Below are positions 12,737-63,758 of a stretch of 64,000 nt of DNA, piece after piece. The position numbers and the translations under genes were made by a program. Every line of letters begins with the position of its first letter. The first letter of the stretch is position 1. The notes under the pieces were generated by a model. The model had not been told where the DNA came from, did not search any database, and was given only the letters and a program-made list of their open reading frames with translations. Origin of the DNA: Streptomyces djakartensis (GTDB taxonomy: Bacteria > Actinomycetota > Actinomycetes > Streptomycetales > Streptomycetaceae); the NCBI RefSeq assembly GCF_014651075.1, contig NZ_BMWE01000004.1:124001-188000 (forward strand), given 5' to 3'.

Positions 12737-12771
12737 GTGTGAATTCCTATTCCCCGCCCAGGAGTTCACAC
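12737..12771. promoter_or_regulatory. Inverted repeat upstream of the two-component operon
   Basis: GTGTGAATTCCT at 12737-12748 faces AGGAGTTCACAC at 12760-12771, an imperfect 12-base dyad between the divergent response-regulator and carbonic-anhydrase genes. It may bind the response regulator itself, which would also let it act on the carbonic anhydrase operon. Confidence 0.45.
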
Positions 12772-12915
12772 GCTACAAGACAGTGGTTCGTATGTATATC
12801 CAGGACAAAGAATGTTCAATTCCTGGACGGGTGCAGGGTCTGGCTTAACCTTCCGCTGTAGGTCGTCCGTCTACGGTGTGGTGCACAGGTTGAACTCGCA
12901 GCTCAGGAGGCCGAG

Positions 12916-47186: not shown

Positions 47187-47260
47187 GGGGCGGTAGCTCA
47201 GCCGGTTAGAGCAGCGGACTCATAATCCGTCGGCCGTGGGTTCGAGTCCCACCCGCCCCA
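47187..47260 (+). tRNA. tRNA with CAT anticodon (elongator Met or Ile2), probable integration site
   Basis: 74-base cloverleaf: acceptor GGGGCGG/CCGCCCC, D arm AGCTCAGCCGGTTAGAGC, anticodon loop CTCATAA, T arm GTGGGTTCGAGTCCCAC; CCA is encoded at 47261-47263. I cannot decide from sequence alone between elongator Met and the lysidine-modified Ile2. The integrase gene begins its reading end 124 bases downstream, so the 3' end is a likely attachment site. Confidence 0.93.
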
Positions 47261-47358
47261 CCACTCGCTACGCGAGGAGAAACCTTCTGACCAGCAACTT
47301 AGCTGGTTGGGGGCGACAGTCGAGAGATCTTGGCGGCCCGTCCCGATCATGGGATTAC

Positions 47359-47386: not shown

Positions 47387-48970
47387 TCACGCGGCGGTAC
47401 GGAGCCCCTCCTCCGGCTTATCGCCCTCGGTGTCCCCGCCTGTCTTGGGCGCCTCATCCTGTGCCCTCGATCGCCTCGGCTTCTCTCGCCGGGGACCGAC
47501 CTTCTTCGAGCGGGGTACGACCGCGCTCGTGGACTCCGCCTCGGCGGTCAGGAGCTGAGGCAGGACGCTCGTGTACGTGTCTGAGGTGATCTGGCGGGAG
47601 CTGTGTCCCAGCCGCTCCTGGACGACCTTGATGTCCGCCTTGCCGAGCAGCGCCAACGTTGCCGACAGATGCCGAGTGTCGTGCAGGCGGATCGGAGGTA
47701 ACCCAGACAGTTCGACCAGCCGGTTGAACCGCCGGCTGATCCAGTCGGGGTGGAGCGGCTCGCCGTTCTCGTGGGTCCAGACCCGGTTGCTCTCAACCCA
47801 TGCCTTCTCCCCGGACCACTGCTGCCGTTCCTGTTTCTGGGTCTCCCGCCACTCGGCCCACAGCGCGCGTGTCAGCGTGTCGAGCGTGACGGTGCGCACA
47901 CTGTCCTGTTTCGGGGCCTCGTCGTACATCCGATAGGCGATCTCGACGACCTGTGCGGAGATGCGGAACCACGAGCCGGTCAGACTGACCTCGCTCCACG
48001 GCAGCGCACACATCTCACCGCGTCGGGGTCCTCGGAAGATGAACCCGTGCCACATGCCGTACAGCCTGTCGTCGGCGATGTAGTCCAAGAACTCGCCAGT
48101 CTGCTCCGGGGTCCAGACCATGACGGGACTGGGTTTCACGCCCGTGCGCTTCCACTCTGCGACCCGTTCCGGCGTCCAGACCAGTGCCTTGGGCCGCTTG
48201 ACCGGCGGCAGCTCGACCATCGCGGCCCAGTTCTTCGTGTAGTCGCCGCGCTTGATGCCGCTGCCCAGGAACGAGCTCAGGGTGGCGTTGATACGGTGCA
48301 TCGTGGAGGCGCTGGTGATCTTCCGCTTGCCCTTGCGGCCTTCGCGGAGGGCGGCGTTGGCATCGAGGTAAGCGAGGCGCGTGGCACGACGCTCCTCTTT
48401 GTTCCCCGCAGCGCGGACCCACGCCGTGTAGGCGGCGTCGCGAGCTTGCTGCAGCTCGACTATCCGGCCGTGGTGGATCAGCCGCTCGGCGTTCTCCCGC
48501 TCGATCGCGCCGTACATCGCCTCGACGTGCCGCAGCTTGAGGTCCCGGCGTTTGATGTGCCCGAGGTGAGGTTCGAGGTAGAGCCGGACGTGCTCCTCAT
48601 ACCCGTGGAAGGTCGTGCGCGCCAGGCTCCTCTTCCTCTTGAGCCACGCATCCAGGTCTTCCTTCACGGTGGCGTTACTGAGCACATCTGTGCCGTCGAC
48701 GGATTCCCGGTAGACCTCGGCCGCCTTGGCCTGCGCCGCGTCCTTCGTGGCGAAGCCACCTCGCCGCACGCGCTGTCGCTCGCCACCCTCGCCCGCTTCG
48801 AGTTCGAAGTAGAAGTACCAGCGGCCGTGGCTCTTCTGCTTGAGCTTGGGGCAGCCCGCGCCGACCAGGCGCCGCTTCGGTTTGCCGTCGTCGTTGAACA
48901 CCGGTTTGCCATCATCGCCGATCACATCCTCTCGGCAGGCGCATTGCCGGTAGTAGCTGGGGTTGAACAC
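47387..48970 (-). CDS. int: Tyrosine recombinase (site-specific integrase)
   Basis: 527 residues. Residues about 1-90 include a Cys-rich beginning (CACREDV, GAGCPKLKQKSHG) and an arm-binding-like beta region; 110-250 is the SAM-like core-binding domain; the C-terminal catalytic domain has the Arg in FRGPRRGEMCALPW, HDTRHLSATLALLG (HxxR), LGHSSRQITSDTYT with the nucleophilic Tyr near residue 466. A Lys/Arg-rich tail follows. GTG start with AGGAG six bases before. It converges on the CAT tRNA, its likely target. Confidence 0.93.
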   Translation of the reverse strand: MFNPSYYRQCACREDVIGDDGKPVFNDDGKPKRRLVGAGCPKLKQKSHGRWYFYFELEAGEGGERQRVRRGGFATKDAAQAKAAEVYRESVDGTDVLSNATVKEDLDAWLKRKRSLARTTFHGYEEHVRLYLEPHLGHIKRRDLKLRHVEAMYGAIERENAERLIHHGRIVELQQARDAAYTAWVRAAGNKEERRATRLAYLDANAALREGRKGKRKITSASTMHRINATLSSFLGSGIKRGDYTKNWAAMVELPPVKRPKALVWTPERVAEWKRTGVKPSPVMVWTPEQTGEFLDYIADDRLYGMWHGFIFRGPRRGEMCALPWSEVSLTGSWFRISAQVVEIAYRMYDEAPKQDSVRTVTLDTLTRALWAEWRETQKQERQQWSGEKAWVESNRVWTHENGEPLHPDWISRRFNRLVELSGLPPIRLHDTRHLSATLALLGKADIKVVQERLGHSSRQITSDTYTSVLPQLLTAEAESTSAVVPRSKKVGPRREKPRRSRAQDEAPKTGGDTEGDKPEEGLRTAA

Positions 48971-49041
48971 CTATGGCTCCTTGTCGTCTCCGCTTGTGGA
49001 TCTTCTGTGCCGGTCTATGTCGACCCATCTCCTATCTTGCC

Positions 49042-49059
49042 CCAACACTCCAGTGTTGG
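49042..49059. promoter_or_regulatory. Palindrome CCAACACT-CC-AGTGTTGG between int and xis
   Basis: A perfect 8-base dyad in the divergent promoter region of the integrase and the xis-like gene, followed at 49073 by GCATGTTGG. The shared TGTTGG core with the repeats at 47359 suggests Xis or integrase binding or autoregulation. Confidence 0.5.
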
Positions 49060-49105
49060 AGTATCCTTGTGGCATGTTGGCGCGGGGGAGATCGCGACAA
49101 CGGGA

Positions 49106-49354
49106 ATGACAACGAAGGACGCTTCTGTACCTACGGACTCCGGGGCCAGACCCATGACCCGGGAAGAACTGCTCGCGCTTCCGCCGACCGTGAACGTCAC
49201 GACGGCTGCTCGGGCGCTCGGGATCGGTACGCACAAGGCTTACAGCTTGATCAAGAAGGGGTCTTTCCCCGTGCAGACACTCCCTCTGGGTAGCACGGTG
49301 AGAGTCCCCACTGCTGCACTCTGGCGCGTTCTGGGGGTGACGCCCCCGGAGTAG
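49106..49354 (+). CDS. xis: Excisionase-like (helix-turn-helix) protein
   Basis: 82 residues: MTREELLALPPTVNVTTAAR then ALGIGTHKAYSLIKKGSFPV and a wing (GSTVRVPTAALWRVLGV) is the MerR/Xis-type small helix-turn-helix found next to actinobacterial integrases. It probably bends attachment DNA and directs excision. Divergent from int across the palindrome at 49042. Confidence 0.82.
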   Translation: MTTKDASVPTDSGARPMTREELLALPPTVNVTTAARALGIGTHKAYSLIKKGSFPVQTLPLGSTVRVPTAALWRVLGVTPPE

Positions 49355-49447
49355 TGACCTGCCTAGCCCTTGATCAGCCGGTCCTCTGGTCATAGCCACG
49401 GCACGGGCGCTGTGGCCTAGGATTCGGGCGGCTACAGGGCGTATGAG

Positions 49448-50488
49448 ATGAGAACGGACCACCGCATGCCACGGCTCTACGGTTTCGACGATCAGTCGCG
49501 TCAGCGGCTGCGTGATGACGAAGTGGACCCGCTGCGCCAGATGGTCAGCCGGGCTCTGGTCGACTTGTCTGTGTCCAATGCGGACGTCGCTGTCTGGGCG
49601 AACGGACAGGGCTACCGGGGGACGCTCGGCGGGGAGTGGAAGGACGCCTCGGTCGGACGGCTCTTCCGTAACCCGGCGATTGCGGGGCTGCGCTACGGCG
49701 ACGATGGCCAGCTCGTCGACGCCGGCCACCCGGGCGTCATCACCCGTGAGGAGTTCGAGGCACTGCTCGCGCGTGAGCAGCATCGGAAGACGGGCGACGC
49801 CGATAAGCCGTACGACTACCTGCTGACCGATGGCGGGTGCACCTGCGGCCAGTGCACCCATGCGCTTCAGGGCGCACGGACCAACGCGGGGACCCCTGGT
49901 TATCGCTGTCGTCCGAAGGACAAGGACGGGCGAGGCGGGTGCGGCGAAGTCCGTATCGATGCGGAGCTGTTGGAGGGTCACGTCGGTGAGTACGTCGTGG
50001 CCGAGCTCCTCAAGCCCGGTGTCCGCGCCCAGATCCTCAAGTCCCAGGCCTTTGTGCGACAGCTGGTGGAAAACCTTGACCGTGAGATCAAGGACCTGGA
50101 AGCGCGACGGACCGAGGTAGGGACCCTGTACGGAACGCGTCAGATCAGCAAAGACGCGCTCGTGGCCGCCGAGAAGCAGATCGCCGACAGCCTCAAGTCC
50201 GCCCGATCGCGGAAGAGGTACGCGGAGCAGATGGCGAACTTCTCACTGGGTAGGGCGAAGGATCTGGTGAGGTGGTGGAACTCTGCGCCGACCGCATCGA
50301 AGAAGGCGATCACCACGCTGCTCCTGTCGAGCGTTGAGGTCTTCCCAGCGAGCGCCCGCGGTGTCCGAACGGTGGAGCCAGGGCGCGTCGTCCTCCACTG
50401 GCGCAAGCTGGCCGACCTCTCAGCGGAATCAGACGATGCGCGCGGCGAGCCGCCTGCCGATCATTGCCATAGTCAGTCCGGTGATTAG
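49448..50488 (+). CDS. Large serine recombinase C-terminal half, lacking the catalytic resolvase domain
   Basis: 346 residues. RLYGFDDQSRQRLRDDEVDP and WKDASVGRLFRNPAIAGLRY form the pfam 'Recombinase' DNA-binding domain; CTCGQC with a later KDGRGGCGEV is the zinc ribbon, followed by a long coiled coil (LVENLDREIKDLEARRTEV, residues about 200-270). The roughly 150-residue N-terminal resolvase domain with the catalytic Ser is missing, and the upstream sequence does not encode it in any frame. It starts right at the domain border. It may be a decayed gene or a DNA-binding protein in its own right. Confidence 0.8.
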   Translation: MRTDHRMPRLYGFDDQSRQRLRDDEVDPLRQMVSRALVDLSVSNADVAVWANGQGYRGTLGGEWKDASVGRLFRNPAIAGLRYGDDGQLVDAGHPGVITREEFEALLAREQHRKTGDADKPYDYLLTDGGCTCGQCTHALQGARTNAGTPGYRCRPKDKDGRGGCGEVRIDAELLEGHVGEYVVAELLKPGVRAQILKSQAFVRQLVENLDREIKDLEARRTEVGTLYGTRQISKDALVAAEKQIADSLKSARSRKRYAEQMANFSLGRAKDLVRWWNSAPTASKKAITTLLLSSVEVFPASARGVRTVEPGRVVLHWRKLADLSAESDDARGEPPADHCHSQSGD

Positions 50489-51187
50489 CGTGATCACGGC
50501 GAGCCCGGCCAGGAGGGGGGAGATGACCTCTTCCGTCTCCAGCGCCCATGGGTGTCCGAGGTAGTTGGCCACGAGGTATGAGCCCTTGCTGGCGGCGTAC
50601 CCGACTCCGAGAAGTGCCGACACCGTAGACAGGCCCAGACCGCGAGCCGACCAGGAGTGTCCGCCACGCCGGGCGACGAGCGCCATCCCGGAGCACAGGA
50701 ACGCGATCTCGCCGCAAGTGATCGCGACGTAGCCGAGGTAGACCAGCAAGTAGACGGTGACGCCAGGGATGCTGGCGTATTCGGTTGTGAACTCGATGCC
50801 CTCTTCGGTGGTGTAGGCGAACAGCGGCAGCATGGCTGCGAGGACGCACACCGCGAAGGCGATACGCGCGTAGAGGCTGGCCTTCAGTACCTCCTGGTTG
50901 TACGACCAGTCCACGAGCATGAGTTGAAGGCTGCCGCACCAGAGCACCGCGCAGATATGAGCGCCTATCTTCGCGGCGTTGTTCATGCCGGTCACGGACT
51001 CGACGAGATCCTCAACTGGCGGCACGGCCAGGATCACGCCCACCGTGCAGACGCCGAAGGCCGTAGCCCGGGTGAATCGAGCGATGCGGTATTCGACTTG
51101 ATCCCGATGGCGCCACGCCTCGCGGGCGGAGAGCGCGGTGCCCGCTATGCCGAACAGGGCGCAAAGTCCGAAGACGATGCTGTCCAT
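50429..51187 (-). CDS. Seven-helix membrane protein, MAB_1171c-like
   Basis: 252 residues with about seven hydrophobic segments (IVFGLCALFGIAGTALS, FGVCTVGVILAVPPV, ICAVLWCGSLQLML, IAFAVCVLAAMLPLFAY, VTVYLLVYLGYVAITCG, LLAGLAVITLITGLTMAMIG). Actinobacteria often encode such a protein directly after an XRE-type regulator, as here (six bases after it). The role is unknown. Its 3' end overlaps the convergent recombinase-like gene by 60 bases. Confidence 0.75.
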   Translation of the reverse strand: MDSIVFGLCALFGIAGTALSAREAWRHRDQVEYRIARFTRATAFGVCTVGVILAVPPVEDLVESVTGMNNAAKIGAHICAVLWCGSLQLMLVDWSYNQEVLKASLYARIAFAVCVLAAMLPLFAYTTEEGIEFTTEYASIPGVTVYLLVYLGYVAITCGEIAFLCSGMALVARRGGHSWSARGLGLSTVSALLGVGYAASKGSYLVANYLGHPWALETEEVISPLLAGLAVITLITGLTMAMIGRRLAARIV

Positions 51188-51192
51188 TTGGT

Positions 51193-51720
51193 TCAGTTTC
51201 CTTCCAGATCAGAGACCGCGCGCTCGGCTGCTTCGGTGAAGCTGAGGCGCCTCCGCCGGCCTGGCCGCGGTGGTTCCGCGACAGGGGGAAGCGGCTCAGG
51301 CACCTCTGGGACAGTTAGATCATTGCGTCCGTGTCGCAGCCGGATCTCACGCGCGGCCTCCAGTAGTTCAGCGGCGCCGGCTTCACCTAGGTCATGGATG
51401 AGCCGGAGCGCCTCGCGAGCGTCTTGGTGTTCCTCGTAGACCGATAGGGAGGTCAGACCGTTGTAACCGGGGAGTAGGTAAGCTACCGGACCACCGAACG
51501 CCCTTGCGAGCCCGACTAGTTGAGTGGTCTTCGGGTCCGTCTTCACCCCGTTCAGGAGATCATTGACCACTTGGTGGGTCATCACCGGTTTACCCCCGGG
51601 CGTCGCCGCCGTTGCGGCGGCCAGGGCGCGCGTGCTGGGGGTTCTCCCGTCTCTCTGTCGTTTCCTGCCAAGCAGGACGGCGAGCTTGCTGGAGAGAGGG
51701 GTGTCCGGGCCGAGCGGCAT
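51193..51720 (-). CDS. XRE-family helix-turn-helix regulator
   Basis: 175 residues: an N-terminal HTH region (SSKLAVLLGRKRQRDGRTPS, then MTHQVVNDLLNGVKTDPKTT) and a helical C-terminal part with LGEAGAAELLEAAREIRLRHG and an Arg-rich tail. It probably represses its own operon; a dyad ATTGTC/GACAAT lies upstream. Co-transcribed with the membrane protein at 51187. Confidence 0.8.
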   Translation of the reverse strand: MPLGPDTPLSSKLAVLLGRKRQRDGRTPSTRALAAATAATPGGKPVMTHQVVNDLLNGVKTDPKTTQLVGLARAFGGPVAYLLPGYNGLTSLSVYEEHQDAREALRLIHDLGEAGAAELLEAAREIRLRHGRNDLTVPEVPEPLPPVAEPPRPGRRRRLSFTEAAERAVSDLEGN

Positions 51721-52055
51721 ATGGCGGCTACTCCTCGGTGGTGTGGCAGGCCCGGTTGGGCGGAACGTGGCAGGTCAAGGCGCACCCAAGTATCCGTGTA
51801 TGAGGCGACGATGTCTCGCGGACCTGCCTATTGTCTAGGTTAGTTGACAATGGGTAACCCGCTGGGCAAGATCGGTAGTCGCAGTAGATAGCGCACTCAG
51901 TGCCGGGTTGCCGCCCCCTCTTCCACCTCCCAGGCTGCGAGATCGTGTCCGGCACCCCTTGGGCCACTTGATGTGTGCCGCCAGCATGACTGTGTGGGGA
52001 TCTAAGTTTGCCGCCGCTTGCTATCGGGCGGAACTGCAATGCGGGGAGGGTACGG
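51721..52055. other. Intergenic regulatory region of the XRE operon
   Basis: About 335 bases without a supported gene. It contains the dyad at 51830-51851 and a TTGACA -35-like box at 51844-51849 reading right with a weak CAAGAT -10 at 51867. Confidence 0.5.
51830..51851. promoter_or_regulatory. Probable XRE operator ATTGTC-n10-GACAAT
   Basis: Inverted hexamers separated by ten bases, overlapping the TTGACA box of the rightward promoter, about 110 bases before the XRE start. This is the size and position expected for a dimeric repressor site. Confidence 0.5.
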
Positions 52056-52226
52056 GTGGGGATCGAGCTGGACCGAGTGCTGGCCCGATTGGAAGAGTCG
52101 GACGGCGTGGAGAACGTCACTCTGGATGAGAGGGCGGCGCTCGCCGCACTCGGGGCGCTGGCCATCGTCGACCCGAAGCGGGTTGACTGTGAAGTGCGGC
52201 AGCCGGGCGTTCCGAGCGCGGGCTGA
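52056..52226 (+). CDS. Small protein of unknown function
   Basis: 56 residues from a GTG with GGGGAGGG five bases upstream. GIELDRVLARLEESDGVENV and LDERAALAALGALAIVDP suggest two amphipathic helices. No family recognised; the strong ribosome site is the main support. Confidence 0.5.
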   Translation: MGIELDRVLARLEESDGVENVTLDERAALAALGALAIVDPKRVDCEVRQPGVPSAG

Positions 52227-52386
52227 TTTTGGCGGGTAGCCAAACGCGGACCCTTGTGCGTCCGCGTTTACGCGTCTGACCTGCAAAAACTTCTCGAAAA
52301 ATGTGGACCCACCCCTGTAATGCATATAGAATAGAACTAGAAGGAGAGGGAAACAAGAAGCCTCCACCGACCTCTTGGAGTCTGAA

Positions 52387-53532
52387 ATGTCGCACAAGTT
52401 CGCCACCCTGAAGATGCGTCAGATCCGCCGCAACGAGAACCAGCCCCGCGAGACCTTCGACGAGGAGGCCCTGAAGGAGCTGGCCGACTCGATCAAGCAG
52501 CACGGCCTCCTCCAGCCGATCGTCGTCCGAAAGGTGGCGGAGGGCGGCTACGAGCTGGTCGCCGGTGAGCGCCGCTTCCGCGCAAACCAGATGGCCGACA
52601 ACATCACCATCGAGGCGAAGATCCTCCTGCCCGACGGCGACGACGTCGAGATCAGCGACATGGACTCCTTCAAGAAGGCGATGGCCGAGAACCTCAACCG
52701 CGAGGACATGCTGCCGCTCGAGGAGGCCCGCGGCTTCAAGAAGGTCCTGGACCAGGAGGAGGGAGCCGCGGTCGAGACCGTCGCGAAGACGTTCTCCAAG
52801 TCAGTCCAGTACGTCAACTTCCGCTTGGCACTGCTCAACCTGCGCCCGGAGATCCAGACCGCCGTCGACATGGGCCACATCGGCACACAGGCTGCCGTAC
52901 AGATCGCCGCGCTCTCGCCGGGCAACCAGAAGGCGGTCTTCGAGGACTGGAAGAAGGGCGCCAAGAGCGACAACCAGCTGGTTCACATGGCCTACGCCAT
53001 GCGCAAGCAGGAGAAGGCTGCCAAGCAGGACTCCATGGTCGATGTCGAGGAGATGACCGAGGAGCAGAAGGCCGAGCGGAGCCGCGCCCAGGCCAAGACC
53101 AAGAACGACCTCGACGAGATCGAGCGGATGTGCACGCTGCTGGAGGACATCGGCAAGGCCGACCCTATGGAGCTGGCCAACAGCCTGGAGGGCGAGGTCG
53201 GCAAGCGGCTTGAGCAGATGGACCGAGTCGCCGCCCTCCTCCAGAAGGCTCGCTTCCAGCTCCGTCAGGCCAAGGCACATGCCGACGCCAAGGAGATCAT
53301 GGTCAACCCCGACGCGGCGGCGCCCGACCTGGCGGCTGAGGCCGACGCGCGGCTCGCCGAGTTGGAGCCGACCGCGGGGGACGCCGAGCCGGAGATGGAC
53401 GTCGAGCCCGCTCCGAAGGAAGAGGCGGACGGCCGGGCGGAGCTCGCTCCCGCCGCCGAGACGGAGTCCGAGAGCCCGGCGGAGTCGGAGGGCGCCGAGG
53501 CTGAGGCCGAGCCGATCGCCGTCGCGGCCTGA
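52387..53532 (+). CDS. ParB/RepB/Spo0J-family protein
   Basis: 381 residues. N-terminal ParB nucleotide-binding domain (IRRNENQPRETFDEEALKEL, GLLQPIVV, ELVAGERRFRANQMA with the GERRxRA CTP-binding motif), a central HTH region (VETVAKTFSKSVQYVNFRLA), then a long charged coiled-coil and an acidic Ala/Glu-rich tail. No ParA is adjacent, so a role in partition of an excised element or in regulation are both possible. ATG 52387 has GGAG six bases before. Strong AT-rich promoter-like sequence (TATAGAAT near 52324) lies upstream. Confidence 0.85.
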   Translation: MSHKFATLKMRQIRRNENQPRETFDEEALKELADSIKQHGLLQPIVVRKVAEGGYELVAGERRFRANQMADNITIEAKILLPDGDDVEISDMDSFKKAMAENLNREDMLPLEEARGFKKVLDQEEGAAVETVAKTFSKSVQYVNFRLALLNLRPEIQTAVDMGHIGTQAAVQIAALSPGNQKAVFEDWKKGAKSDNQLVHMAYAMRKQEKAAKQDSMVDVEEMTEEQKAERSRAQAKTKNDLDEIERMCTLLEDIGKADPMELANSLEGEVGKRLEQMDRVAALLQKARFQLRQAKAHADAKEIMVNPDAAAPDLAAEADARLAELEPTAGDAEPEMDVEPAPKEEADGRAELAPAAETESESPAESEGAEAEAEPIAVAA

Positions 53533-53542
53533 CCTACCCGCC

Positions 53543-53571
53543 GGGGGCGGCCCGCTGAGGGGGCCGCCCCC
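53543..53571 (+). terminator. Hairpin after the ParB-like gene
   Basis: A perfect 11-base stem GGGGGCGGCCC with its complement and a seven-base loop, 11 bases after the stop; no T-run follows. It may be a terminator or an attenuator for the small genes downstream. Confidence 0.65.
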
Positions 53572-53593
53572 TTCCCTGAGGAGTCCCACCGCA

Positions 53594-53929
53594 ATGAACC
53601 CGATCCCGAGCATGCGCAACATCAACCGCAACCTGTTCGACGTGCCGGCCTCGGCCAACGCCCTTGAGGAGTACGACTCCAACGTGGCCGAACTCGTTCG
53701 CCAGGCTGCCAATCACCTGTTCACGGCACGCCGTGACGACGATCAGGCGGCCCTGGACGAGGCGTACAACCTGACCCTCCTCGCCGCCGCCGACCTCATG
53801 AAGGGTGCCGGTAGCTCGGTGTACGTACGCACCCACATCATGATCACGGCCCGCTTGGTCGAGCTCGAAGCGGCGCTGCTTGCCGCTGGAACCAAGACCG
53901 CGGGTGAGCGAGGAGGGCGGACGGCATGA
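53594..53929 (+). CDS. Hypothetical helical protein
   Basis: 111 residues, mostly helical (ANALEEYDSNVAELVRQAAN, ALDEAYNLTLLAAADLMKGA, RTHIMITARLVELEAALLAA). GAGTCCC-like weak ribosome site. It overlaps the next gene (ATGA at 53926), so it belongs to the same operon. Function unknown. Confidence 0.6.
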   Translation: MNPIPSMRNINRNLFDVPASANALEEYDSNVAELVRQAANHLFTARRDDDQAALDEAYNLTLLAAADLMKGAGSSVYVRTHIMITARLVELEAALLAAGTKTAGERGGRTA

Positions 53930-54177
53930 AGCGCCCCGCCCACATCAACGGCTTGAAGACCTGGCCCGACGACGGCACGCTGCCGCCCTCCGTCTGTCGA
54001 CTCTGTGACACCGACCTGGCCGATGCCTACAACCGGCTCGCCTCCGCGATCTGTGTTGTCTGCGGCTATTGGGTCTGCGAGCTGTGCGATGGCGGTACCG
54101 ACCCGAACACGGGCGACGCCGTCTGCGACGACCACAAGGGCCATCCGCTCGCCGCCACCTGCACTCAGTACTCGTGA
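53926..54177 (+). CDS. Small zinc-binding-like Cys-rich protein
   Basis: 83 residues with paired cysteines CRLC, CVVC, CELC and a later CDDH, a pattern suited to two zinc sites. The spacing suggests a treble-clef or ribbon fold. It is translationally coupled to the gene before it and followed at 54193 by the methyltransferase. Function unknown. Confidence 0.6.
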   Translation: MKRPAHINGLKTWPDDGTLPPSVCRLCDTDLADAYNRLASAICVVCGYWVCELCDGGTDPNTGDAVCDDHKGHPLAATCTQYS

Positions 54178-54192
54178 TCAGGAGACCGAGCC

Positions 54193-55113
54193 ATGCAGAT
54201 AGATCCTGATGTCCTCGACGTGATCCGGGCGGCCACGGCCGACGGCCCGATGCTTCGACTTCCCGGTCAGCTCGACCGCAAGCTGTACGAGCGCGTCAAC
54301 CTCGCCTTGGGCGCGGCGGGTGGCCGGTGGAACCGCTACAAGCGCGCTCACCTCTTCCCCGGTGATGCCGCCGAGGCCATCGCGGGACTACTCGCCACCG
54401 GTGAGGTAACCACCGATGCCGAGCGCGGCTACTATCCGACGCCTGATCCCGTCGTTGAACAGCTCTTGGAGCTGGCCGAGCTCGAACCCGGCTGCGAGAT
54501 GCTGGAGCCGTCGGCCGGCCGCGGCGCCATCGCCAAGCCTGCCGCCGCCCGCGGCGTCATCGTCGACTGCGTGGAGCTCGACGCCACCCGGGCCGAGCAC
54601 ATCCGCTCCGACGGGTACGCCCGAAGAGTCATGACCGCAGACTTCCTCGACGTCAAGGTTGAGCGCCGGTACCACCGGGCAGTCCTCAACCCACCCTTCG
54701 CAGACCGGCAGGACATCAGGCACGTGGAGAGGGCCCTGCGCTTCGTTCGGCCGGGCGGCCTGGTGGTTGCGGTGATGTCCGGCGGCCTCACTTTTCGCTC
54801 CGACCGCCTGACCAAGGACTTCCGCGCGCGTGTCCAGGAGGCGCGAGGCACCATCACGGAATTGCCGGACGGCGCGTTCCCCTCCGTGGGGGTGCGTACG
54901 GTTGTCGCGGTGATACCGGTCCGGGATGCGCCGCCGCCCTCCGGCTTCAACCGGTTCGCGCCGAGAGTCGAGGACTTCCGAGCGCGACCTCGAGCTGTCC
55001 AGCAGGACCTGTTCCTTGTCGACGCTCCAACAGCCCACGGGACGGCCCCCTTTGACGGACTCGGATACGGAGCAGCCCTATGGGCAAAGATAGATCCCAA
55101 CACTGAAGCGTGA
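54193..55113 (+). CDS. N6-adenine-type DNA methyltransferase-like protein
   Basis: 306 residues of the class I SAM-dependent fold: motif I EPSAGRGAIA, acidic motif II CVELDATRAEHI and the catalytic motif IV NPPF with the following FADRQDIRHVERALRFVRPGG. The N-terminal 80 residues form a separate segment (LRLPGQLDRKLYERVNLALG, KRAHLFPGD). NPPF is typical of amino-methylating enzymes of adenine or glutamine. Genes like this are common in phages and mobile elements; no restriction partner is adjacent. Confidence 0.8.
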   Translation: MQIDPDVLDVIRAATADGPMLRLPGQLDRKLYERVNLALGAAGGRWNRYKRAHLFPGDAAEAIAGLLATGEVTTDAERGYYPTPDPVVEQLLELAELEPGCEMLEPSAGRGAIAKPAAARGVIVDCVELDATRAEHIRSDGYARRVMTADFLDVKVERRYHRAVLNPPFADRQDIRHVERALRFVRPGGLVVAVMSGGLTFRSDRLTKDFRARVQEARGTITELPDGAFPSVGVRTVVAVIPVRDAPPPSGFNRFAPRVEDFRARPRAVQQDLFLVDAPTAHGTAPFDGLGYGAALWAKIDPNTEA

Positions 55114-55982: not shown

Positions 55983-56654
55983 GTGACGTCGACGCCCGCC
56001 AACATCCCCGAACTGCTCCTGCCTCTCGCCGTCCCCATCGGGGATCTGACGCCGTACTACCGCAACCCGCGCAACGGCGATCTCCCCGCCATCGCCGAAT
56101 CGCTCACCGTGAACGGCCAGTACCGCGCGATCGTCGTCAACAAGGGCACGCTCACCGGACGGTCCAACGAGATCCTCGCGGGCAACCACACCTACGCCGC
56201 CGCTCAGCAGCTCGGCTGGGAGCAGATCGCCGTCACCTGGGTTGACGTCGACGACAGCGCAGCAGACCGCATCGTCGTCGTCGACAACCGGACCAACGAC
56301 CTCGCCGGATACGACTCCGTTCTCCTGGCCGAGATTCTCTCCGACATCCCCGACCTCGCAGGCACCGGCTACGACCGCGAGAGCGTAGACCGACTCCTGG
56401 ACGACACCTCCCTCCCCGAGACGCTCGAACTCACCTCCGACGGAGCGGGCACCGGGGCCGCAGCCACCGTCGACTACCTCCAGTGGGGCTACCTCCAGTG
56501 GGAGTCCAAGCGCGTACGGATCACCTCCGAAGAGGTCGAAACCCTCAACGCGATCTACACGAAGTTCGTGGACGACACCAACAGCGACCTCGGCTTCGGC
56601 TGGCACGTCATTCAGCACGCCCACCAGGAGGGCCAGGAGGGGCAGACCGCATGA
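55983..56654 (+). CDS. ParB-like nuclease/kinase-fold protein without the GERR motif
   Basis: 223 residues from GTG. It has the ParB/sulfiredoxin fold pattern (VPIGDLTPYYRNPRNGDLPA, VNGQYRAIVVNK, NEILAGNHTYAAAQQLGWEQ) but GNHT replaces the GERR of partition ParB proteins; GNHT/GNHR variants occur in phage ParB-like enzymes that use ATP. It overlaps the next gene (ATGA), so the two probably act together. Not a partition protein by motif. Confidence 0.72.
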   Translation: MTSTPANIPELLLPLAVPIGDLTPYYRNPRNGDLPAIAESLTVNGQYRAIVVNKGTLTGRSNEILAGNHTYAAAQQLGWEQIAVTWVDVDDSAADRIVVVDNRTNDLAGYDSVLLAEILSDIPDLAGTGYDRESVDRLLDDTSLPETLELTSDGAGTGAAATVDYLQWGYLQWESKRVRITSEEVETLNAIYTKFVDDTNSDLGFGWHVIQHAHQEGQEGQTA

Positions 56655-58096
56655 GTACAGCGCCCACCACACAGTTCTACGAGGCGTACCCGCTCGACCA
56701 GCTCCGCCCGGCCGACTACAACCCGCGCCGCCTCAGCGAGGACGCGTTCGTCCGGCTCCAGGCTTCCCTGCGTCGCCACGGCGTCGTGAAGCCGGTCATC
56801 CTCAACGCCGATGGCACGCTGGTCGCAGGTCACCAGCGAACCAAGGGACTCAAGGCCATCGGGCTGACGCACACGCCCGCTGTCATGCTCGGGACGAAGG
56901 TTCGCTTGCAGGACGAAATCCAGTTCAACCTTCTGCACAACCGGGTCGAGACCGAGGCCAGCGTCGTCTACGCCGAGCCCGGCCCGATCGGCGCATGGTC
57001 CTGGATTCCCTGGCAGTCCATCCACGTCGCCGAGCGCAAGAACCTCAGCTTCGTCAACGCCATCGGCCACATGACCGCCGGCCACGGCCCCTGGGGCAGC
57101 GTCGTCATTGACGACCAGGGCCGCATCGTGCTGAACGCCGAGTACGCCGTCGTCGCCTCCATCTCCCGATTCGACCTCCTCGCCTGGACCGTGACATCAG
57201 GCGACGCCGCCCAGCTCCACGCCGACCTCACCGGCGAATACGGCGTCTACGACTGGACGGCCATCGAGGACAAGGCCCCCGTCTGGAACCAGCACATCGT
57301 CCAACCGAAGCGCCTGCGGAAGTTCTCCTCCAAGGCCAAGGCCGGAAAGCTCGCCTACGGATCCGAGACCTGGGACCAGTTGGTCACCCCATGGCTCAAG
57401 CCCACACACAGGGTCGTGGACTTCGGCGCCGGATACGGCGACTACGCCAAGCACCTACGCGCCAAGGGCTTCAACATCCACGACTACGAGCCCTACCGCT
57501 GCCGTGACGGCTCGTACGCCGTCGACGTCCGCGCCGTCGTCGGCATGATCCGCGACATCAACACCGACATCGAGGCCCATGGTCTCTACGACGTCGTGGT
57601 CCTCGACTCGGTCATCAACGCCACCACGTCTCTCGACTACCAGCACTGGGTGCTGACCACCGTCAACGCCCTGTGCGCGGCTGACGGCGTCGTGTGCCTC
57701 GGCACACGCAGCCTCGCCCGCGAACTCCGCGACGAGCAAGCCAAGCGCGTCACCTCCCAGACAGCCACCACGAAGATGAGCTTCCTCGACGAGAACAACG
57801 TCGAGATGAACTTCGTCAAGGGAAAGTGGCAGAAGCTCCGTTTCCACACGCCGGAAACCCTGGAGGCACTGCTACGGCGCTACTTCAAGGACGTGCAGCT
57901 CAGCGACCTGAGCGGCTCCAATCTGAAAGCCACCTGCCGAGGTCCGATCGCGCTCCCCAGGGAAGAATACGAGAAGGCTTTTGAAGAAGAATTCAACATG
58001 CCCTATCCGAACGGATTCCGGCACGATAGGCATCTGGAATTGGTGGGAAATTTGATAAAATTGACAGAAGAGAGAAGTTCCTCTCTCGTGAATTAG
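56651..58096 (+). CDS. ParB-like domain fused to a SAM-dependent methyltransferase
   Basis: 481 residues. Residues about 10-110 are a ParB fold (LDQLRPADYNPRRLSEDAFV, GVVKPVILNADGTLVAGHQR, TKGLKAIG; GHQR in place of GERR); 110-230 is a separate region of unknown fold; from about 245 a class I methyltransferase (HRVVDFGAGYGDYAKHLRA, YDVVVLDSVINAT, GVVCLGTRSLA). Such fusions are known mostly from phages and mobile elements. The fusion and the coupling to the previous ParB-like gene argue for one joint activity on DNA or nucleotides. Confidence 0.72.
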   Translation: MSTAPTTQFYEAYPLDQLRPADYNPRRLSEDAFVRLQASLRRHGVVKPVILNADGTLVAGHQRTKGLKAIGLTHTPAVMLGTKVRLQDEIQFNLLHNRVETEASVVYAEPGPIGAWSWIPWQSIHVAERKNLSFVNAIGHMTAGHGPWGSVVIDDQGRIVLNAEYAVVASISRFDLLAWTVTSGDAAQLHADLTGEYGVYDWTAIEDKAPVWNQHIVQPKRLRKFSSKAKAGKLAYGSETWDQLVTPWLKPTHRVVDFGAGYGDYAKHLRAKGFNIHDYEPYRCRDGSYAVDVRAVVGMIRDINTDIEAHGLYDVVVLDSVINATTSLDYQHWVLTTVNALCAADGVVCLGTRSLARELRDEQAKRVTSQTATTKMSFLDENNVEMNFVKGKWQKLRFHTPETLEALLRRYFKDVQLSDLSGSNLKATCRGPIALPREEYEKAFEEEFNMPYPNGFRHDRHLELVGNLIKLTEERSSSLVN

Positions 58097-58115
58097 AGTT
58101 TCAAATGGGGAGTGC

Positions 58116-58628
58116 ATGTCGCAGCGAATAAAGGTCGAAATTGAGTCGCGGACCCGATATCACATCATGTGGCTGGCAGGTGTGCGGCACGTCGCCCTGG
58201 ATCAGCACTGCCTTCGGAGCTTTGGTCAGCCCGATCGGCCTCGGGTGGATGTTCGCCGCCGGCGCCAGATCGTCGAACTGCCCGAGCAGAAACCCCCGTT
58301 GGCCTGGTATCTCTGTGCGCTGCCTAACCCTTGGAAGTGGAGCGACAACGCCCACCTGGCCTTCGAGGACGCTCCGGGTGAGCAATGGGAGGGGCCAGCC
58401 CTGGTGTCGGGATTGTATGTCCGCTTGGAGAACGCTCGCCCGATCGCCGGGTGGGGTGAGCACAGCATTCCTGACGCCGAACCTCGGCGGCGCTCGTACC
58501 GCTTCCGCACGTGCCGCAACTATCAGTTCGCCTGGTGGCTGCGGACGGAGCGCAACGCGCCGGACGCCCCGCCTGAGCTCGTGCCGCCCAAGAGGCCTGG
58601 CGAAGGTGAACAGATGTCGCTGATGTGA
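58116..58628 (+). CDS. Hypothetical protein
   Basis: 170 residues, ATG with GGGGAG four bases upstream, 19 bases after the ParB-methyltransferase gene, hence probably in the same operon. Rich in Trp, Arg and Pro (PLAWYLCALPNPWKWSDNAH; CRNYQFAWWLRTERNAPDAP). No family recognised. Confidence 0.5.
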   Translation: MSQRIKVEIESRTRYHIMWLAGVRHVALDQHCLRSFGQPDRPRVDVRRRRQIVELPEQKPPLAWYLCALPNPWKWSDNAHLAFEDAPGEQWEGPALVSGLYVRLENARPIAGWGEHSIPDAEPRRRSYRFRTCRNYQFAWWLRTERNAPDAPPELVPPKRPGEGEQMSLM

Positions 58629-59210: not shown

Positions 59211-60431
59211 ATGCCGATCCTCTTTATTCACGGAATCACCGTTCGCCGGGAACGTTTCGATGGCCTGCTAGGTGACCTTGAGAAGGGATTTGCTGCCGTT
59301 TCAACCACTGCCGTTCAGTCTGTGAAACCATGCTATTGGGGCGACCTGGGCAGATCCGATGCGTACAAAGGCGCAACCATTCCGGGCTTTACAGTAGGAA
59401 CCCGGGATCTGGAAGGCTCGCTGCCGGAGGAGTCGGAAGTGGGTCTCCTCACTGCGCTGCTGGAGGCCCCGTTGGCAGAGTTGGCGGGCCTGAGGGACGT
59501 CGAGGACTTTGGGGATGACGCTCCCGGTTTCCTCTCGGTACCCGAGGCCGTGGAAGAGCGAAACCAACGGTTCGACGAGGCGGATGCTGCGGTTAGCAAC
59601 CGAGTTGCGAGCATCAGTCCCTCGGTCTCTGGTCCGTACCCCCCGCTTGATCACGAGACGGTCGACACCATCGTCCACGCGGTATTCGATGAGGTAAAGC
59701 GCGCGGATCGTGCATTGGGGGTGGAGGACCTGTGCCCCCCAGTAGCGCGTGCCATCACGGCATGGCTCTACCGAGACACTGTGAGAGGTGATGTGCTGGC
59801 TGGCGGATTCCGATGGAATCAAGCAGTTGACCTCGTCGAAACCGCACTGCGCGAGAACGAGCAACTCGGCGGCGAACGAGGAATGTTTAGGGAACTCGCC
59901 AAGGATTTGGCGTCCGAGTCACTGACATTTGCATTCCGGGCAGGGCTTCGAAATCGCATTATGCCGGGATTGTCGCTGTTTCTGGGTGACGTCTTCGCGT
60001 GGTTCCGTAACAGGACCCAGATCTTGGAGCGGGTTGAGGCTGCGGTGAGAGATGCGGGCAACCAGGGCCCATTGGTCATCATAGGCCATAGTTTGGGTGG
60101 GGTGATTGCCTTCGAATACTGCATGGAGGCGGGAAGAACCATAGAGTTGCTCGGCACGGTAGGAAGCCAAGTTGGTCTATTTTCTGAACTTGGTGCAATA
60201 CATCAGGTCCCTGCGCGGCTGGCTAGTGGACAGTTTGAGTCTCCGGCGCACGTGGGCACCTGGCTCAATATTTACGACCCGGATGACGTATTGAGCTTCC
60301 TCGCTGCTCCTGTTTTCACGCGAGTCAACGACATCGTGCTCGATACTGGTGCACCATTCCCTGCAGCGCACAGCGAGTACTGGAACCTACCCGAGACTTA
60401 TCGAAAGTTGGCAGCGGGGTGGGCGCCGTGA
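59211..60431 (+). CDS. Alpha/beta hydrolase (lipase/esterase-like), first gene of the caspase operon
   Basis: 406 residues. The oxyanion-hole HGI at the very start (PILFIHGITVRRE), nucleophile Ser294 in IIGHSLGGVIAFEY and a C-terminal His387 in PAAHSEYW, with acidic residues at DPDDV before it, complete a plausible catalytic triad. Between residues about 60 and 270 there is a large helical insert. No signal peptide, so it is cytoplasmic. GGGGAGG six bases before the ATG. Its stop overlaps the caspase start (GTGA). The lower GC than the surroundings suggests transfer. Could be a lipase that damages membranes, or an activator of the protease. Confidence 0.8.
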   Translation: MPILFIHGITVRRERFDGLLGDLEKGFAAVSTTAVQSVKPCYWGDLGRSDAYKGATIPGFTVGTRDLEGSLPEESEVGLLTALLEAPLAELAGLRDVEDFGDDAPGFLSVPEAVEERNQRFDEADAAVSNRVASISPSVSGPYPPLDHETVDTIVHAVFDEVKRADRALGVEDLCPPVARAITAWLYRDTVRGDVLAGGFRWNQAVDLVETALRENEQLGGERGMFRELAKDLASESLTFAFRAGLRNRIMPGLSLFLGDVFAWFRNRTQILERVEAAVRDAGNQGPLVIIGHSLGGVIAFEYCMEAGRTIELLGTVGSQVGLFSELGAIHQVPARLASGQFESPAHVGTWLNIYDPDDVLSFLAAPVFTRVNDIVLDTGAPFPAAHSEYWNLPETYRKLAAGWAP

Positions 60432-61474
60432 CTCAAGATCAGGACTATGCGTTGATCATTGGTATAGCGCATTACCCGCATCTGAAGTCCCTGCAGGGTC
60501 CGATCGAAGATGCTCGTCGAGTGGCGCATTGGCTAAAGGGACCGGGGGGCCTGCCATGGCAAAATGTCAAAGTCATTGAAAGTCTGGGGCTGGAGCACGA
60601 GCGGCCCGTTATCGACGAGATTAACAAGGGGTTCGATGAAATATTTGCACGTGCCGAAGCCTACAATAAGGAACGCCCCCGGAGGCCCGTCCGTAGGCTA
60701 TACGTCTACTTTGCTGGGCACGGCTGCTCTCGAGAGCGGAACCACCTCGCGCTCATCATGGCTAATGCGGATCGGCGCAATCTGAACCGCGCGATGAACT
60801 CTACAGAATACCGTAACGCATTGGCTCGGCGCATGTTTCCGGAACAAATCTATCTATTTGATTGCTGCCGCAAGTATGACGGCCGAATCACAGGGCACGG
60901 ACCCGACTGGACTAGCGATGACACCGAGGAGGACGTTCAGGGCCTCACTCAGGTGGTGATGTACGCAGCCGGCTTCAGACAGGCAGCCCACGAACGCAGC
61001 ATGCGCTGGTCGGTGCGTCGCGGTTTGTTCACCCAGGCACTGATGGAAGGCCTGGAGGGGGCGGCAGCAACCGCAAGCGGTGTCATCACTAGCGCCGGAC
61101 TTGGGGCATATGTCCAAAGACGGCTCGCTGTGCTGGCAAAGAGTGAAAAGGTTCGTCAATGTTACACGGGGGACACTCAAGGTGAGAAGCAGCACCTCAT
61201 CCTGGCTTCGGGCGTTGAGCCATGGCGCAGGGAGGTGAGCGTCACGCTGCCGATCGATGCGAGTCGCATTGTCGTGAACGACGAACACGGTGACACTGTG
61301 TGGACGCAAGTGACGGCCCCAGGGCAAACGCAGGCGGCGCTGCACCTGACGTTGGGCCTTTACACGATCAAGGTTGAGCCGACGGGAGTCTCGATGACCA
61401 TCGATCTGCTACCCGACCTCGACGGCAACGCCTACCCCCTTGATCTCTCGGGGACCTACTCATGCCACGGTTGA
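60428..61474 (+). CDS. Caspase-like (peptidase C14) protease with a C-terminal beta domain
   Basis: 348 residues. N-terminal caspase core: YALIIGIAHYPHLKSLQGPIEDARRVAHWL, catalytic His98 in YFAGHGCSRE and catalytic Cys147 in LFDCCRKY, preceded by the hydrophobic beta strand. The C-terminal about 90 residues (VSVTLPIDASRIVVNDEHGD, TLGLYTIKVEPTG) look like a small beta sandwich of the PEGA/Ig type. Bacterial caspases with partner genes are often effectors of suicide-type defence, but here no NTPase or sensor is adjacent. It overlaps both neighbours, so expression is tightly coupled. Confidence 0.82.
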   Translation: MTQDQDYALIIGIAHYPHLKSLQGPIEDARRVAHWLKGPGGLPWQNVKVIESLGLEHERPVIDEINKGFDEIFARAEAYNKERPRRPVRRLYVYFAGHGCSRERNHLALIMANADRRNLNRAMNSTEYRNALARRMFPEQIYLFDCCRKYDGRITGHGPDWTSDDTEEDVQGLTQVVMYAAGFRQAAHERSMRWSVRRGLFTQALMEGLEGAAATASGVITSAGLGAYVQRRLAVLAKSEKVRQCYTGDTQGEKQHLILASGVEPWRREVSVTLPIDASRIVVNDEHGDTVWTQVTAPGQTQAALHLTLGLYTIKVEPTGVSMTIDLLPDLDGNAYPLDLSGTYSCHG

Positions 61475-62781
61475 TCGTCGAGGGTAGACACGAGTTTACT
61501 CAACTCCGGGTGCTCGACTCGCTCATGCGCGAGGTCGCTGCCGGCACGCACATGCTCACGGCGCACCTGCCCCGTGGCATCTATCGTGTAGAAGCGCGAG
61601 TGCCCGGTGCAGTTGACGAACGTCTGGTCACCCTCCCGTCATCTGGGTGGATTCACCTTAAGGATCTAGCGCCGATCTTGGACTCGCCGGTTCCCCTGCA
61701 TGATGTGCGTACGCACCGTGCGATCCACGAGGCCGCCGCGGTCCACGAGAGTCGAAAGGTTCACCTGGACTGGGGGACAAACAGCTCTGGACAGCTTTTC
61801 ATCTTCGTCCGAACCGACGGATCTCCTCGTAGTCTGCCACCGGTCCTCACTGTTGAGACCCTGGACCGCGAACCCATTGCCAGCGTTGCCGAGGACGGCG
61901 TCGGTGACCTAGGGATGGGATTCTATGCGCTCTCTGTCGCGCTACCGCCAGGCACTTACTTGCTTACCCATCAAGTGTCAGATCTAGGTTTGCGTGGCCA
62001 GGCAGTCTTTGTTGAGGAAGGCTGGCAGACACAGCTCTTCGTGCCCTGGGGTGCAGAGGGAGGCGCTTCTGATTTTCCTGGCGGCGAAGCTGAACTCGAG
62101 CGGAGTCTTTTCACTATGGTGCCGCGTGCGGCAGGGTTTTCTCCGAAAGCGGCGTGGCAATACACTCATGTCGAAGCAGCACTTGACGGACTGGCCGAGG
62201 GGCGGATCATTCTCTCTCGAAAGGATGAGCGTGCTCTCCGGAATGGCAAATTCGATAACCCAATCCTCGCCCTAATTGGCGCCTACGGTCTTGCCTTTGG
62301 GTTTGTGAACTACTATAAGTGTGAAATCGGGGACGAAGATCGGGCGGAATGGTCGTCTGTCATTGCTAATCGGATTTTGCAGCTAATTCCTCATAGCCCA
62401 GATGCTCACCTTGTTCGTCACCTGCTATGCGGTCCCGGATCACTGCCTGAGTTCGACCAAATGGGTGGTGTAGGAACCCCTGCTGCACCAGCATTGACAG
62501 CCTTCGGAGAGCCGCCCATTTTTGCTGATGGAATAGAGGCCCTAATTGGGCGGGCCGTGACGGACGAGCGGATTATTCCAGCAGGCAGTTGGAACGCCAG
62601 AATGGCCTCCGTGCGGACTAGCGGAAGTGTTTATAGCCGCTGGGACCTTGACATAGACCCGCGCCAGCAAATTCGAGATGTGCTCGCCGCGGCTCACGCT
62701 GTTGGTATTCTTGACTCCGCAGCCCTTTCCGCCCATAGCGGGCTCCCCTTGTCCTTGGTCCAAGAGGCTGGCGTCACATAG
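61462..62781 (+). CDS. Unknown protein with two putative beta domains, third gene of the caspase operon
   Basis: 439 residues; starts 13 bases before the caspase stop. Two segments (LTAHLPRGIYRVEARVPGAVDERLV region and YALSVALPPGTYLLTHQVSD) share the 'G-x-Y-x-hydrophobic' beta pattern that also occurs at the caspase C-terminus. Residues about 225-330 are a helical region with NPILALIGAYGLAFGFVNYY. The C-terminal part ends in VRTSGSVYSRWDLDIDPRQQIRDV, a mixed segment. I do not recognise the family. It may present the caspase to its trigger or be its substrate. Confidence 0.7.
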   Translation: MPRLIVEGRHEFTQLRVLDSLMREVAAGTHMLTAHLPRGIYRVEARVPGAVDERLVTLPSSGWIHLKDLAPILDSPVPLHDVRTHRAIHEAAAVHESRKVHLDWGTNSSGQLFIFVRTDGSPRSLPPVLTVETLDREPIASVAEDGVGDLGMGFYALSVALPPGTYLLTHQVSDLGLRGQAVFVEEGWQTQLFVPWGAEGGASDFPGGEAELERSLFTMVPRAAGFSPKAAWQYTHVEAALDGLAEGRIILSRKDERALRNGKFDNPILALIGAYGLAFGFVNYYKCEIGDEDRAEWSSVIANRILQLIPHSPDAHLVRHLLCGPGSLPEFDQMGGVGTPAAPALTAFGEPPIFADGIEALIGRAVTDERIIPAGSWNARMASVRTSGSVYSRWDLDIDPRQQIRDVLAAAHAVGILDSAALSAHSGLPLSLVQEAGVT

Positions 62782-62924: not shown

Positions 62925-63758
62925 CTACTCCAGGGCGAAGCCGCCATTTATGTACCATGAGCTGTCAGCCAGTGCCTGGTACATGGCAGCCCGCCACAGG
63001 TTCGGATCTTCCTCGGCTAAGCCTGCGGCTTCGTCTCGCAGATAATCGCCCACCACCGACGGAGCCTTGCGCTTCAGGACGTACCGAAGACTGCTCATCT
63101 CTCGAGCTGCCTGCGATCCGTACAGCGACGCGAGTTCGAACGTGCGGAAGTGCCCGTGAACCCGTGCCGTTAGAACGGTGTCCCACGCCGACGGCGGATT
63201 CACATAAAACTCGACGGCTGCAGGGGCCACTTCGTGGACACGGGCGAAGAGCCACTTTTCTTTACCGACGTCGTCGAAGTAGGGGTGAAGCGTCTGCTCA
63301 ACGGCACTCGTCGGAACGGTCTCGCCCTTCACCGTGTTGCAGCTACGGCACGCGGGAACCAGGTTGAACGGCACAACGGACAGCAGCGGATACGCCGTCT
63401 TCGGCAACTGATGGTCGAGGGTCTCTACATCCCGATGACCGCACAGGGGGCAACGCCCCAGGGGCGCGGCGGCCTTCAGCTTGTCGTACTCGTCCCTACC
63501 TGGATTGCCCTTTCGGGACATACGCTGCGTGTAGTTCTTCTTCAGCTCGGCTCTATCGGTCTTGTCGGCGGGCTTGGCCCTGAGGTCAGCCAGCGTGTGC
63601 AGGGTTGCCGCCGCGGCTGCGGTTTCAAAGCGGTCAGCGGCGTTGACCACCTCTTCTTCCAGGGCCATCAGCCGTGTCATGGCCTTCGGCCGGGACTTGC
63701 TTATGCAAGTCAGGTAGACCGTGCGGGCCGAGAGGGCAGGGACTGGCAGAGTCCACAT
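62925..63758 (-). CDS. HNH endonuclease, PtuB-like
   Basis: 277 residues. CPLCGHRDVETLDHQLPKTAYP and NLVPACRSCNTVKGE form a zinc-ribbon HNH motif (Cx2C ... DH ... CxxC ... K) of the kind found in PtuB of the Septu defence system and in related retron effectors. Residues about 30-85 are helical (ALEEEVVNAADRFETAAAAATL). It overlaps its upstream gene (ATGA), as PtuB does with PtuA. Cleavage of DNA is inferred from the family. Confidence 0.75.
   Translation of the reverse strand: MWTLPVPALSARTVYLTCISKSRPKAMTRLMALEEEVVNAADRFETAAAAATLHTLADLRAKPADKTDRAELKKNYTQRMSRKGNPGRDEYDKLKAAAPLGRCPLCGHRDVETLDHQLPKTAYPLLSVVPFNLVPACRSCNTVKGETVPTSAVEQTLHPYFDDVGKEKWLFARVHEVAPAAVEFYVNPPSAWDTVLTARVHGHFRTFELASLYGSQAAREMSSLRYVLKRKAPSVVGDYLRDEAAGLAEEDPNLWRAAMYQALADSSWYINGGFALE

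Follow-up and report, generated by a model that had tools for sequence, protein, structure and literature searches.

Caspase-type proteases of bacteria have known defense roles in type III CRISPR, gasdermin/CARD, NLR, Thoeris, and Canu systems (PMC12799240). In the VMAP systems of Kaur et al. 2020 (PMC7159879), the caspase always has a neighboring alpha/beta-hydrolase; the same paper describes EACC1, a protein with a single transmembrane segment encoded 5' of its caspase, and the NucA-trypsin System 3, built of Endonuclease_NS and trypsin modules and found mostly in alphaproteobacteria. In Canu, the caspase activates a gated metallo-beta-lactamase (MBL) pro-nuclease by cleavage, and a soluble complex with the partner protein CanB is obtained on co-expression (PMC12799240). 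Here, we describe a three-gene locus, the trio, in a 64,000-nucleotide stretch of the Streptomyces djakartensis genome (the window), which encodes an alpha/beta-hydrolase, a caspase, and a protein that we call the third protein. The trio is real, conserved, and absent from the curated protein libraries searched, and from its sequence we read it as a type of peptidase-activated conflict system in which interchangeable effectors would be served by a caspase and a constant component of a new kind. No published account of it was recognized in a literature search that reached few subscription papers and no supplementary files.

The original prediction, made from the DNA letters, had described genes overlapping at both joints (GTGA, then 13 bases), a hydrolase with a GHSLGG motif, a caspase with His98 and Cys147, and no NTPase in the operon, and each of these descriptions proved accurate. 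On re-reading of the open reading frames (ORFs), the caspase ORF as called mechanically was found to open at 60419; a GTG at 60428 yields the 4-base overlap with the hydrolase gene, and the near relative L005 has a GTG at the equivalent position (loci are numbered L where they must be told apart). The dyad residues are 98 and 147 counted from 60428 and 101 and 150 counted from 60419. The caspase scored 53.1 bits against PF00656 (cut-off, 21.4), with the His-Cys dyad present, and gave a PADLOC caspase match at 8.4e-19; a search of solved structures with its sequence returned nothing meaningful. The hydrolase scored 29.4 bits against PF00975 (Pfam cut-off, 26.4), with an HG at about residue 7, the nucleophile Ser294 in place within GHSLGG, and candidate Asp and His residues at about 356 and 387. 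No transmembrane-like stretch was detected by hydropathy in the three proteins (highest 19-residue value, 1.14 to 1.44). The GC content of the three genes is 0.584, versus 0.699 for the window.

Table 1. Coordinates of the trio and of the surrounding element (window positions unless a locus handle is given)
Feature	Coordinates	Strand	Remarks
Alpha/beta-hydrolase, 406 amino acids	59211..60431	+	Intact ORF; Pfam PF00975
Caspase-family (C14) protease	60428..61474	+	GTG start inside GTGA overlap; PF00656
Third protein, 439 amino acids, likely constant component	61462..62781	+	Intact ORF; family not recognized
GTGA start/stop overlap of hydrolase and caspase genes, 4 bases	60428..60431	+	
Overlap of caspase and third-protein genes, 13 bases	61462..61474	+	
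Left att-like repeat, 47 bp, in 3' end of tRNA-Met	47216..47262	+	
Tyrosine integrase of the element	47387..48970	-	PF00589, 1.9e-13
Second recombinase, serine type	49448-50488		
HNH nuclease of AAA+HNH (PDC-M01) candidate defense pair, outside the operon	62925..63758	-	PADLOC PDC-M01B, E=2.1e-102
AAA_21 partner ATPase of the HNH gene	L022:7762-9384		Runs past window edge

Relatives of the third protein were found in 16 further loci, 17 in total with the window, from actinobacteria, rhizobia, and Cupriavidus; the protein searches scored only the approximately 8,000 candidates with the most words in common, and no relatives were found in viral contigs or phage records. Third-protein queries gave 12 of these loci, namely, L005 (the sole confirmed locus among 96 pattern matches), seven genomes of the genus, two rhizobial plasmids, M. 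huakuii (for which the query was a copy first met via the caspase search), and one actinobacterium. A caspase query matched seven plasmid records, six of them with the third protein, and contributed four new loci (L055 to L058); the seventh record (L059) is VMAP-like. In all 12 loci obtained with third-protein queries, the caspase gene lies immediately upstream of the third gene, and in 11 of them it is preceded by a hydrolase-like gene; M. huakuii (L076) has an S8 peptidase (subtilase) as its first gene. Across the full set, the caspase is adjacent to or fused with the third protein in 17 of 17 loci, and single ORFs encode both in Cupriavidus campinensis (caspase, 3-352; third protein, 367-756) and Sinorhizobium terangae (1-351 and 358-770). 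The first gene is hydrolase-like in 13 loci, a metzincin gene in 2 (L055 and L057), a subtilase gene in 1, and without a match above the cut-off in 1 (L058). Since the caspase-third protein pair recurs in distant bacteria with different partner enzymes, these sequences suggest that the pair is likely the fixed core and the hydrolase an exchangeable part. The predicted three-gene unit therefore stands as far as the co-occurrence of its genes is concerned and is amended in that its first enzyme varies.

The original prediction had also staked itself on homologues of the three genes being found together and on conservation of the catalytic residues. The genes do co-occur, and all 17 loci retain the catalytic His and Cys of the caspase (11 by alignment, 5 more by pattern, and L076 by direct reading of the sequence, the pattern having given no answer for L016 and L076), so the prediction survives on these points. 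The hydrolase GHSxG is present in 10 of the 11 sequences aligned, one having lost its nucleophile; the L056 and L075 hydrolases lay outside this inspection.

In some relatives, further enzymes are attached to the third protein itself. It is fused to trypsin and Endonuclease_NS domains in R. gallicum, to trypsin and PLD domains in M. onobrychidis, and to an M4 peptidase in L021, and in S. mexicanum an Endonuclease_NS-trypsin protein is encoded by a separate next gene. Database relatives are fused to a subtilase or WD40 domain (precomputed labels) or to sigma-70 region 4, and one labelled Streptomyces yangpuensis (P0023) has a second hydrolase-like tail that was read by eye, a Pfam match being absent. 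A constant core with variable C-terminal domains is the layout that Kaur et al. 2020 (PMC7159879) read as proteolytic effector release, and the third protein might accordingly serve mainly as tether and substrate, with a caspase cut releasing the C-terminal effector and, in the window, freeing the hydrolase. We judge this explanation unlikely. The third proteins of the window, L005, and L015 to L019 have only core length (439 to 481 amino acids) with no further domain recognized, the S. mexicanum nuclease is the product of a separate gene, and the single caspase-third protein polypeptides of L055 and L057 hint at a complex that persists. Fusions to Dak1 (P0006) and cpn60 (P0025) were set aside as partial domains and possible assembly chimeras; these partial ends may be either such chimeras or housekeeping-protein decoys fused to the core.

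The joint between the caspase and third-protein genes recurs as well. Of the 10 junctions tabulated, 9 have an overlap of 13 to 26 bases and one (L005) an overlap of 4 bases, counted from the start codons of the ORFs rather than from proven starts. It is 14 bases on the rhizobial plasmids of R. leguminosarum, R. gallicum, S. mexicanum, and M. huakuii, and also in the actinobacterial locus L075, and 23 to 26 bases in the four tabulated Streptomyces (L015, L016, L018, and L019); M. onobrychidis has a matching ATG-to-TAA stretch at the junction, though the start annotated for its third gene is farther on. In 8 of these 10 junctions the shared stretch encodes a short hydrophobic caspase tail (VQF, VQL, VTF, VSF, VVV, or VAI), and in the same 8 the third protein opens with an S-rich segment (SSSE, SPSE, SASE, or SPSS), a pattern from which the window and L005 depart. 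This common double reading suggests that the joint is old, and it points to a joint inherited over the span from actinobacteria to alphaproteobacteria.

The third protein had been assigned to an unknown family, and this holds in Pfam, NCBIfam, and PADLOC: nothing exceeded the cut-off in the first two and the third gave no match, so assignment to a known family was rejected within these libraries. Its best Pfam match was TcfC (E=0.13; 12.3 bits versus a cut-off of 29.4), and an NCBIfam scan of the Streptomyces, S. mexicanum, and M. onobrychidis relatives gave no family. The predicted structure (predicted local distance difference test [pLDDT], 88) comprises two beta-domains followed by helices. 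The first beta-domain (residues 1-73) is transthyretin/CnaB-like in the model, the second spans residues ~105-196, and the helical C-terminal region terminates in a GLPLSxV-like motif. The two beta-domains match each other at 90% in profile-profile comparison. Comparison of the full model with other structures was informative for residues 1-73 only; Foldseek TM-scores by query length were 0.08 to 0.15 among the matches listed and were not used. The beta motif said to be shared with the caspase C terminus exists as a short LxxGxYxx pattern in the beta-like caspase tail, but the claim does not extend to common ancestry: homology between this tail and the third-protein beta-domain found no support beyond a motif of 15 columns, aligned with a probability of 21.6% in profile-profile comparison.

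In the alpha/beta-hydrolase fold, about 100 residues usually separate the HG strand from the nucleophile. In the window hydrolase this gap is ~290 residues, and the spacing from HG to GH[S/G] is 266 to 290 residues in 17 of the 20 hydrolases examined (the motif was not found in the other 3), from which we infer an insert of roughly 200 residues. By likeness to the gated nucleases of PMC12799240, this insert is a candidate gate. Two kinds of hydrolase occur among the trio loci, one with GHSLGG (the window and L005) and one with HFHGG...GHSAG (most others), and BLAST detected no likeness between the two.

The window hydrolase has a match at E<=1e-3 in 197 of 392 same-genus genomes. Among the best 29 other same-genus hydrolase loci, a caspase directly adjoins the hydrolase in 19 (tblastn against stretches of ±1.5 kb), and a profile search of 10 wider neighborhoods added a caspase in 2 of the remaining 10; neither the stretches (0 of 29) nor, by profile, the wider neighborhoods (0 of 10) contained the third protein. 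Proteins of L062 and L069 were scanned with Pfam and NCBIfam, and one protein each of L061 and L059 with Pfam. VMAP-C was present in the L062 caspase, VMAP-M0 reached the cut-off in L062 and fell slightly short of it in L059, L061 and L069 had EAD2 instead of VMAP domains, and SAV_2336 proteins lay beside L062 (with TIR) and L069. The label VMAP-type is thus shown for part of the hydrolase-homologue loci and assumed for the rest. The trio resembles the VMAP systems of Kaur et al. 2020 (PMC7159879) in having a caspase beside an alpha/beta-hydrolase, a similar hydrolase sequence, an equally long gap from HG to GHSLGG, and variable effector domains among its relatives. The hydrolase-caspase pairing, part of what the original prediction offered as a candidate new system, had been described already. 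The trio might on this evidence be a VMAP-type ternary system that has been reduced or rewired, with its NTPase parts either gone or supplied from another site and the third protein replacing VMAP.

This derivation we nevertheless find improbable, because the trio's caspase has a different fixed third protein, which is missing from the hydrolase-homologue stretches and neighborhoods, and because the caspases of the sampled hydrolase loci form a separate clade. In addition, the VMAP model was absent from the Pfam matches of the three proteins at E<=1, in the same library that detected VMAP-C in L062 at 5.8e-35. MoxR-type AAA, vWA, and SAV_2336 domains were likewise not detected by Pfam in the trio or in 13 scanned genes of the element, the rest of the genome not having been searched. 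These neighbors, part of the ORFs of the element, were 9 genes at 55983-58625 and 62925-75986 and 4 genes at 47387-55110; the limits for trio and neighbors were E values of 1, 0.5, and 0.001. The AAA domain found downstream of the trio is the AAA_21 of an AAA+HNH pair.

A tree of 23 caspase domains was built from 14 of the 17 third-protein loci, one of the three other caspases of the window's genome, and eight hydrolase loci. The eight hydrolase-locus caspases formed one clade (97/100), with the window caspase outside it, grouping with L005 and, weakly, with L058. Branches deep in the tree are long and poorly resolved, and since the caspases on the third-protein side do not form one supported clade (2 changes; a single clade in 37% of bootstrap trees), the tree supports only the separateness of the eight. 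Taken with the hydrolase likeness, the trio of the window appears to combine a hydrolase resembling those of VMAP loci with the kind of caspase that accompanies the third protein. Similar hydrolases occur with two different third components, so the link of the hydrolase would be to the caspase, and the trio bears on why alpha/beta-hydrolases accompany bacterial caspases, a pattern noted in 2020. The three other caspase domains over the cut-off in the window's genome (L002, L003, and L004) lie in long open frames of 1653 to 1808 codons.

Other caspase systems offer partial parallels. The EACC1 systems (Kaur et al. 2020 PMC7159879) likewise combine a constant nonenzymatic protein, a caspase, and exchangeable domains. 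However, the third protein has no transmembrane-like stretch, is encoded 3' of the caspase, and itself carries the variable domains, the 5' gene being that of the hydrolase; the window caspase is also not of the EACC1-associated type (NF047832, 70.3 bits versus a cut-off of 140 in NCBIfam). Canu (PMC12799240) is similar in its set of a caspase, a partner protein, and an enzyme, with CanB set beside the third protein by description only. It differs in its effector, an MBL nuclease, compared with an alpha/beta-hydrolase here and a metzincin, NucA, or PLD in relatives; no MBL family was among the Pfam matches of the trio or its scanned neighbors. The Canu caspase has a C-terminal Ig-like fold, set beside the tail motif seen in the sequence of the window caspase. 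In R. gallicum and S. mexicanum (L056 and L058), the modules of System 3 (Kaur et al. 2020 PMC7159879) are either fused to the third protein or encoded next to it, whereas the description of System 3 names neither caspase nor third protein, and the window trio has no NucA or trypsin. The TRADD-N/EACC2 systems (PMC8195603), in which a constant module is paired with a caspase, can be likened by description only.

We tentatively favor, at a little under an even chance, the interpretation that the trio is an anti-phage abortive infection system in which the caspase and the third protein act as a protease with its adaptor and sensor and the predicted lipase-like hydrolase is the likely killer. The third protein would bind the caspase and keep it idle until a sign of infection, perceived by the third protein, altered or clustered the complex. 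The caspase might then cut its partner enzyme, for which Canu offers a precedent; the likeliest place for the cut is the long insert between the oxyanion strand and the nucleophile of the hydrolase, and the freed hydrolase could attack a lipid or another ester, so that the cell would be killed or arrested and its kin shielded from phage. Both the defense role and this order of activation are inferred. If it is correct, the trio would be a small, soluble-looking, NTPase-free system of three proteins in which the step from sensing to proteolysis could be rebuilt in vitro. A bolder form, which we put forward as a rather doubtful possibility, is a death machine crossing phyla and free of NTPases, with the transthyretin-fold adaptor as sensor and scaffold and an initiator caspase that activates interchangeable pro-enzymes (lipase-like hydrolase, metzincin, subtilase, or, via trypsin, a nuclease) by cutting their inserts. 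This would amount to a proteolytic cascade whose core is fixed and whose killers are plugged in, a layout comparable to that of the initiator and executioner caspases of animals.

Several observations weigh against the abortive infection interpretation. The window third protein has no recognizable sensor domain, its helical half modeled in isolation had a pLDDT of 57.5 with a fold that could not be assigned, and no site of cleavage came to light. Four of the 17 loci lack a hydrolase-like first gene, and the hydrolase label for the first gene of L015 to L021 rests on HGG and GHSxG motifs and on alignment to rhizobial copies, one of which was already annotated as an alpha/beta hydrolase; the three of these first genes that were scanned gave no Pfam match above the cut-off, and the two rhizobial ones scanned gave Abhydrolase_6 only below it. 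In L021, whose third protein bears an M4 peptidase, the hydrolase (11557-13023) reads GHGSG, with Gly replacing the nucleophile Ser, while its caspase is intact, which suggests that hydrolysis may be dispensable in some loci. The third gene of L020 (9331-10900) is split by a frame change, with the hydrolase-like gene and caspase upstream open, reflecting either a sequencing error or decay. The trio is also rare, occurring in at least 8 of 392 same-genus genomes, at least 1 of 396 in a phylum sample, and at least 2 of 394 in a class sample, the window's genome included; four candidates per genome were scored among the matches listed, and the counts are possibly lower bounds. Finally, six Streptomyces loci (L015 to L020) have a common chromosomal setting in which a solute-binding protein (upstream in some), a BTAD regulator, or a long AAA-type gene (either of these downstream in some) recur, and recognized defense genes were absent among the few neighbors scanned. 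This conserved setting speaks against defense alone.

The same setting, outside a recognized defense island, would suit a module for regulated cell death or for development in mycelial bacteria, without any particular tie to phages, and Kaur et al. 2020 (PMC7159879) tie caspase-type systems to the multicellular habit. To this explanation we give a rather slim chance: the distribution is patchy among same-genus genomes, the window trio, with its lower GC content, is on an integrated element beside defense-type genes, and the rhizobial copies lie on plasmids. The suggestion that the trio is a defense system is supported by these neighbors and tempered by the settled chromosomal setting of L015 to L020.

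The mobile element claimed for this region is supported by the tyrosine integrase and by the 47-bp att-like repeat, whose downstream copy lies ~92 kb away on contig C4 near 263456-263502, not in a tRNA gene. A 26-base pattern, which at up to one mismatch occurs at two sites in the genome, revealed the repeat, whose length was judged by eye. These repeats delimit an integrated element of ~92 kb, with the trio 12 kb inside. The location of the trio here and on rhizobial plasmids would also fit a gene set acting between mobile elements, in exclusion, addiction, or plasmid competition, and not against phages. We consider this very improbable, as no antitoxin-like gene was recognized among the three, chromosomal settings occur too, and the enzymes come in sets similar to the ones known from conflict systems.

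The neighbor described as a PtuB-like nuclease was confirmed as an HNH gene with an AAA_21 partner (Table 1). Beyond this pair lie an AbiJ/Abi_C gene and DUF499, DUF1156-methylase, and SNF2-helicase/NOV_C genes; this defense-type group, the pair included, is placed at L022:7762-19987, just past the window end. The element also carries, on the upstream side of the trio (55983-58093), two genes with ParB-like N-terminal domains, one of them with a methyltransferase domain. AAA ATPase and HNH-type genes resembling those next to the window trio also occur at L005:14981-17604 and at L057:14481-16852, a few kilobases from the trio in L005 and from the S. terangae fusion in L057, a recurrence that might be more than chance.

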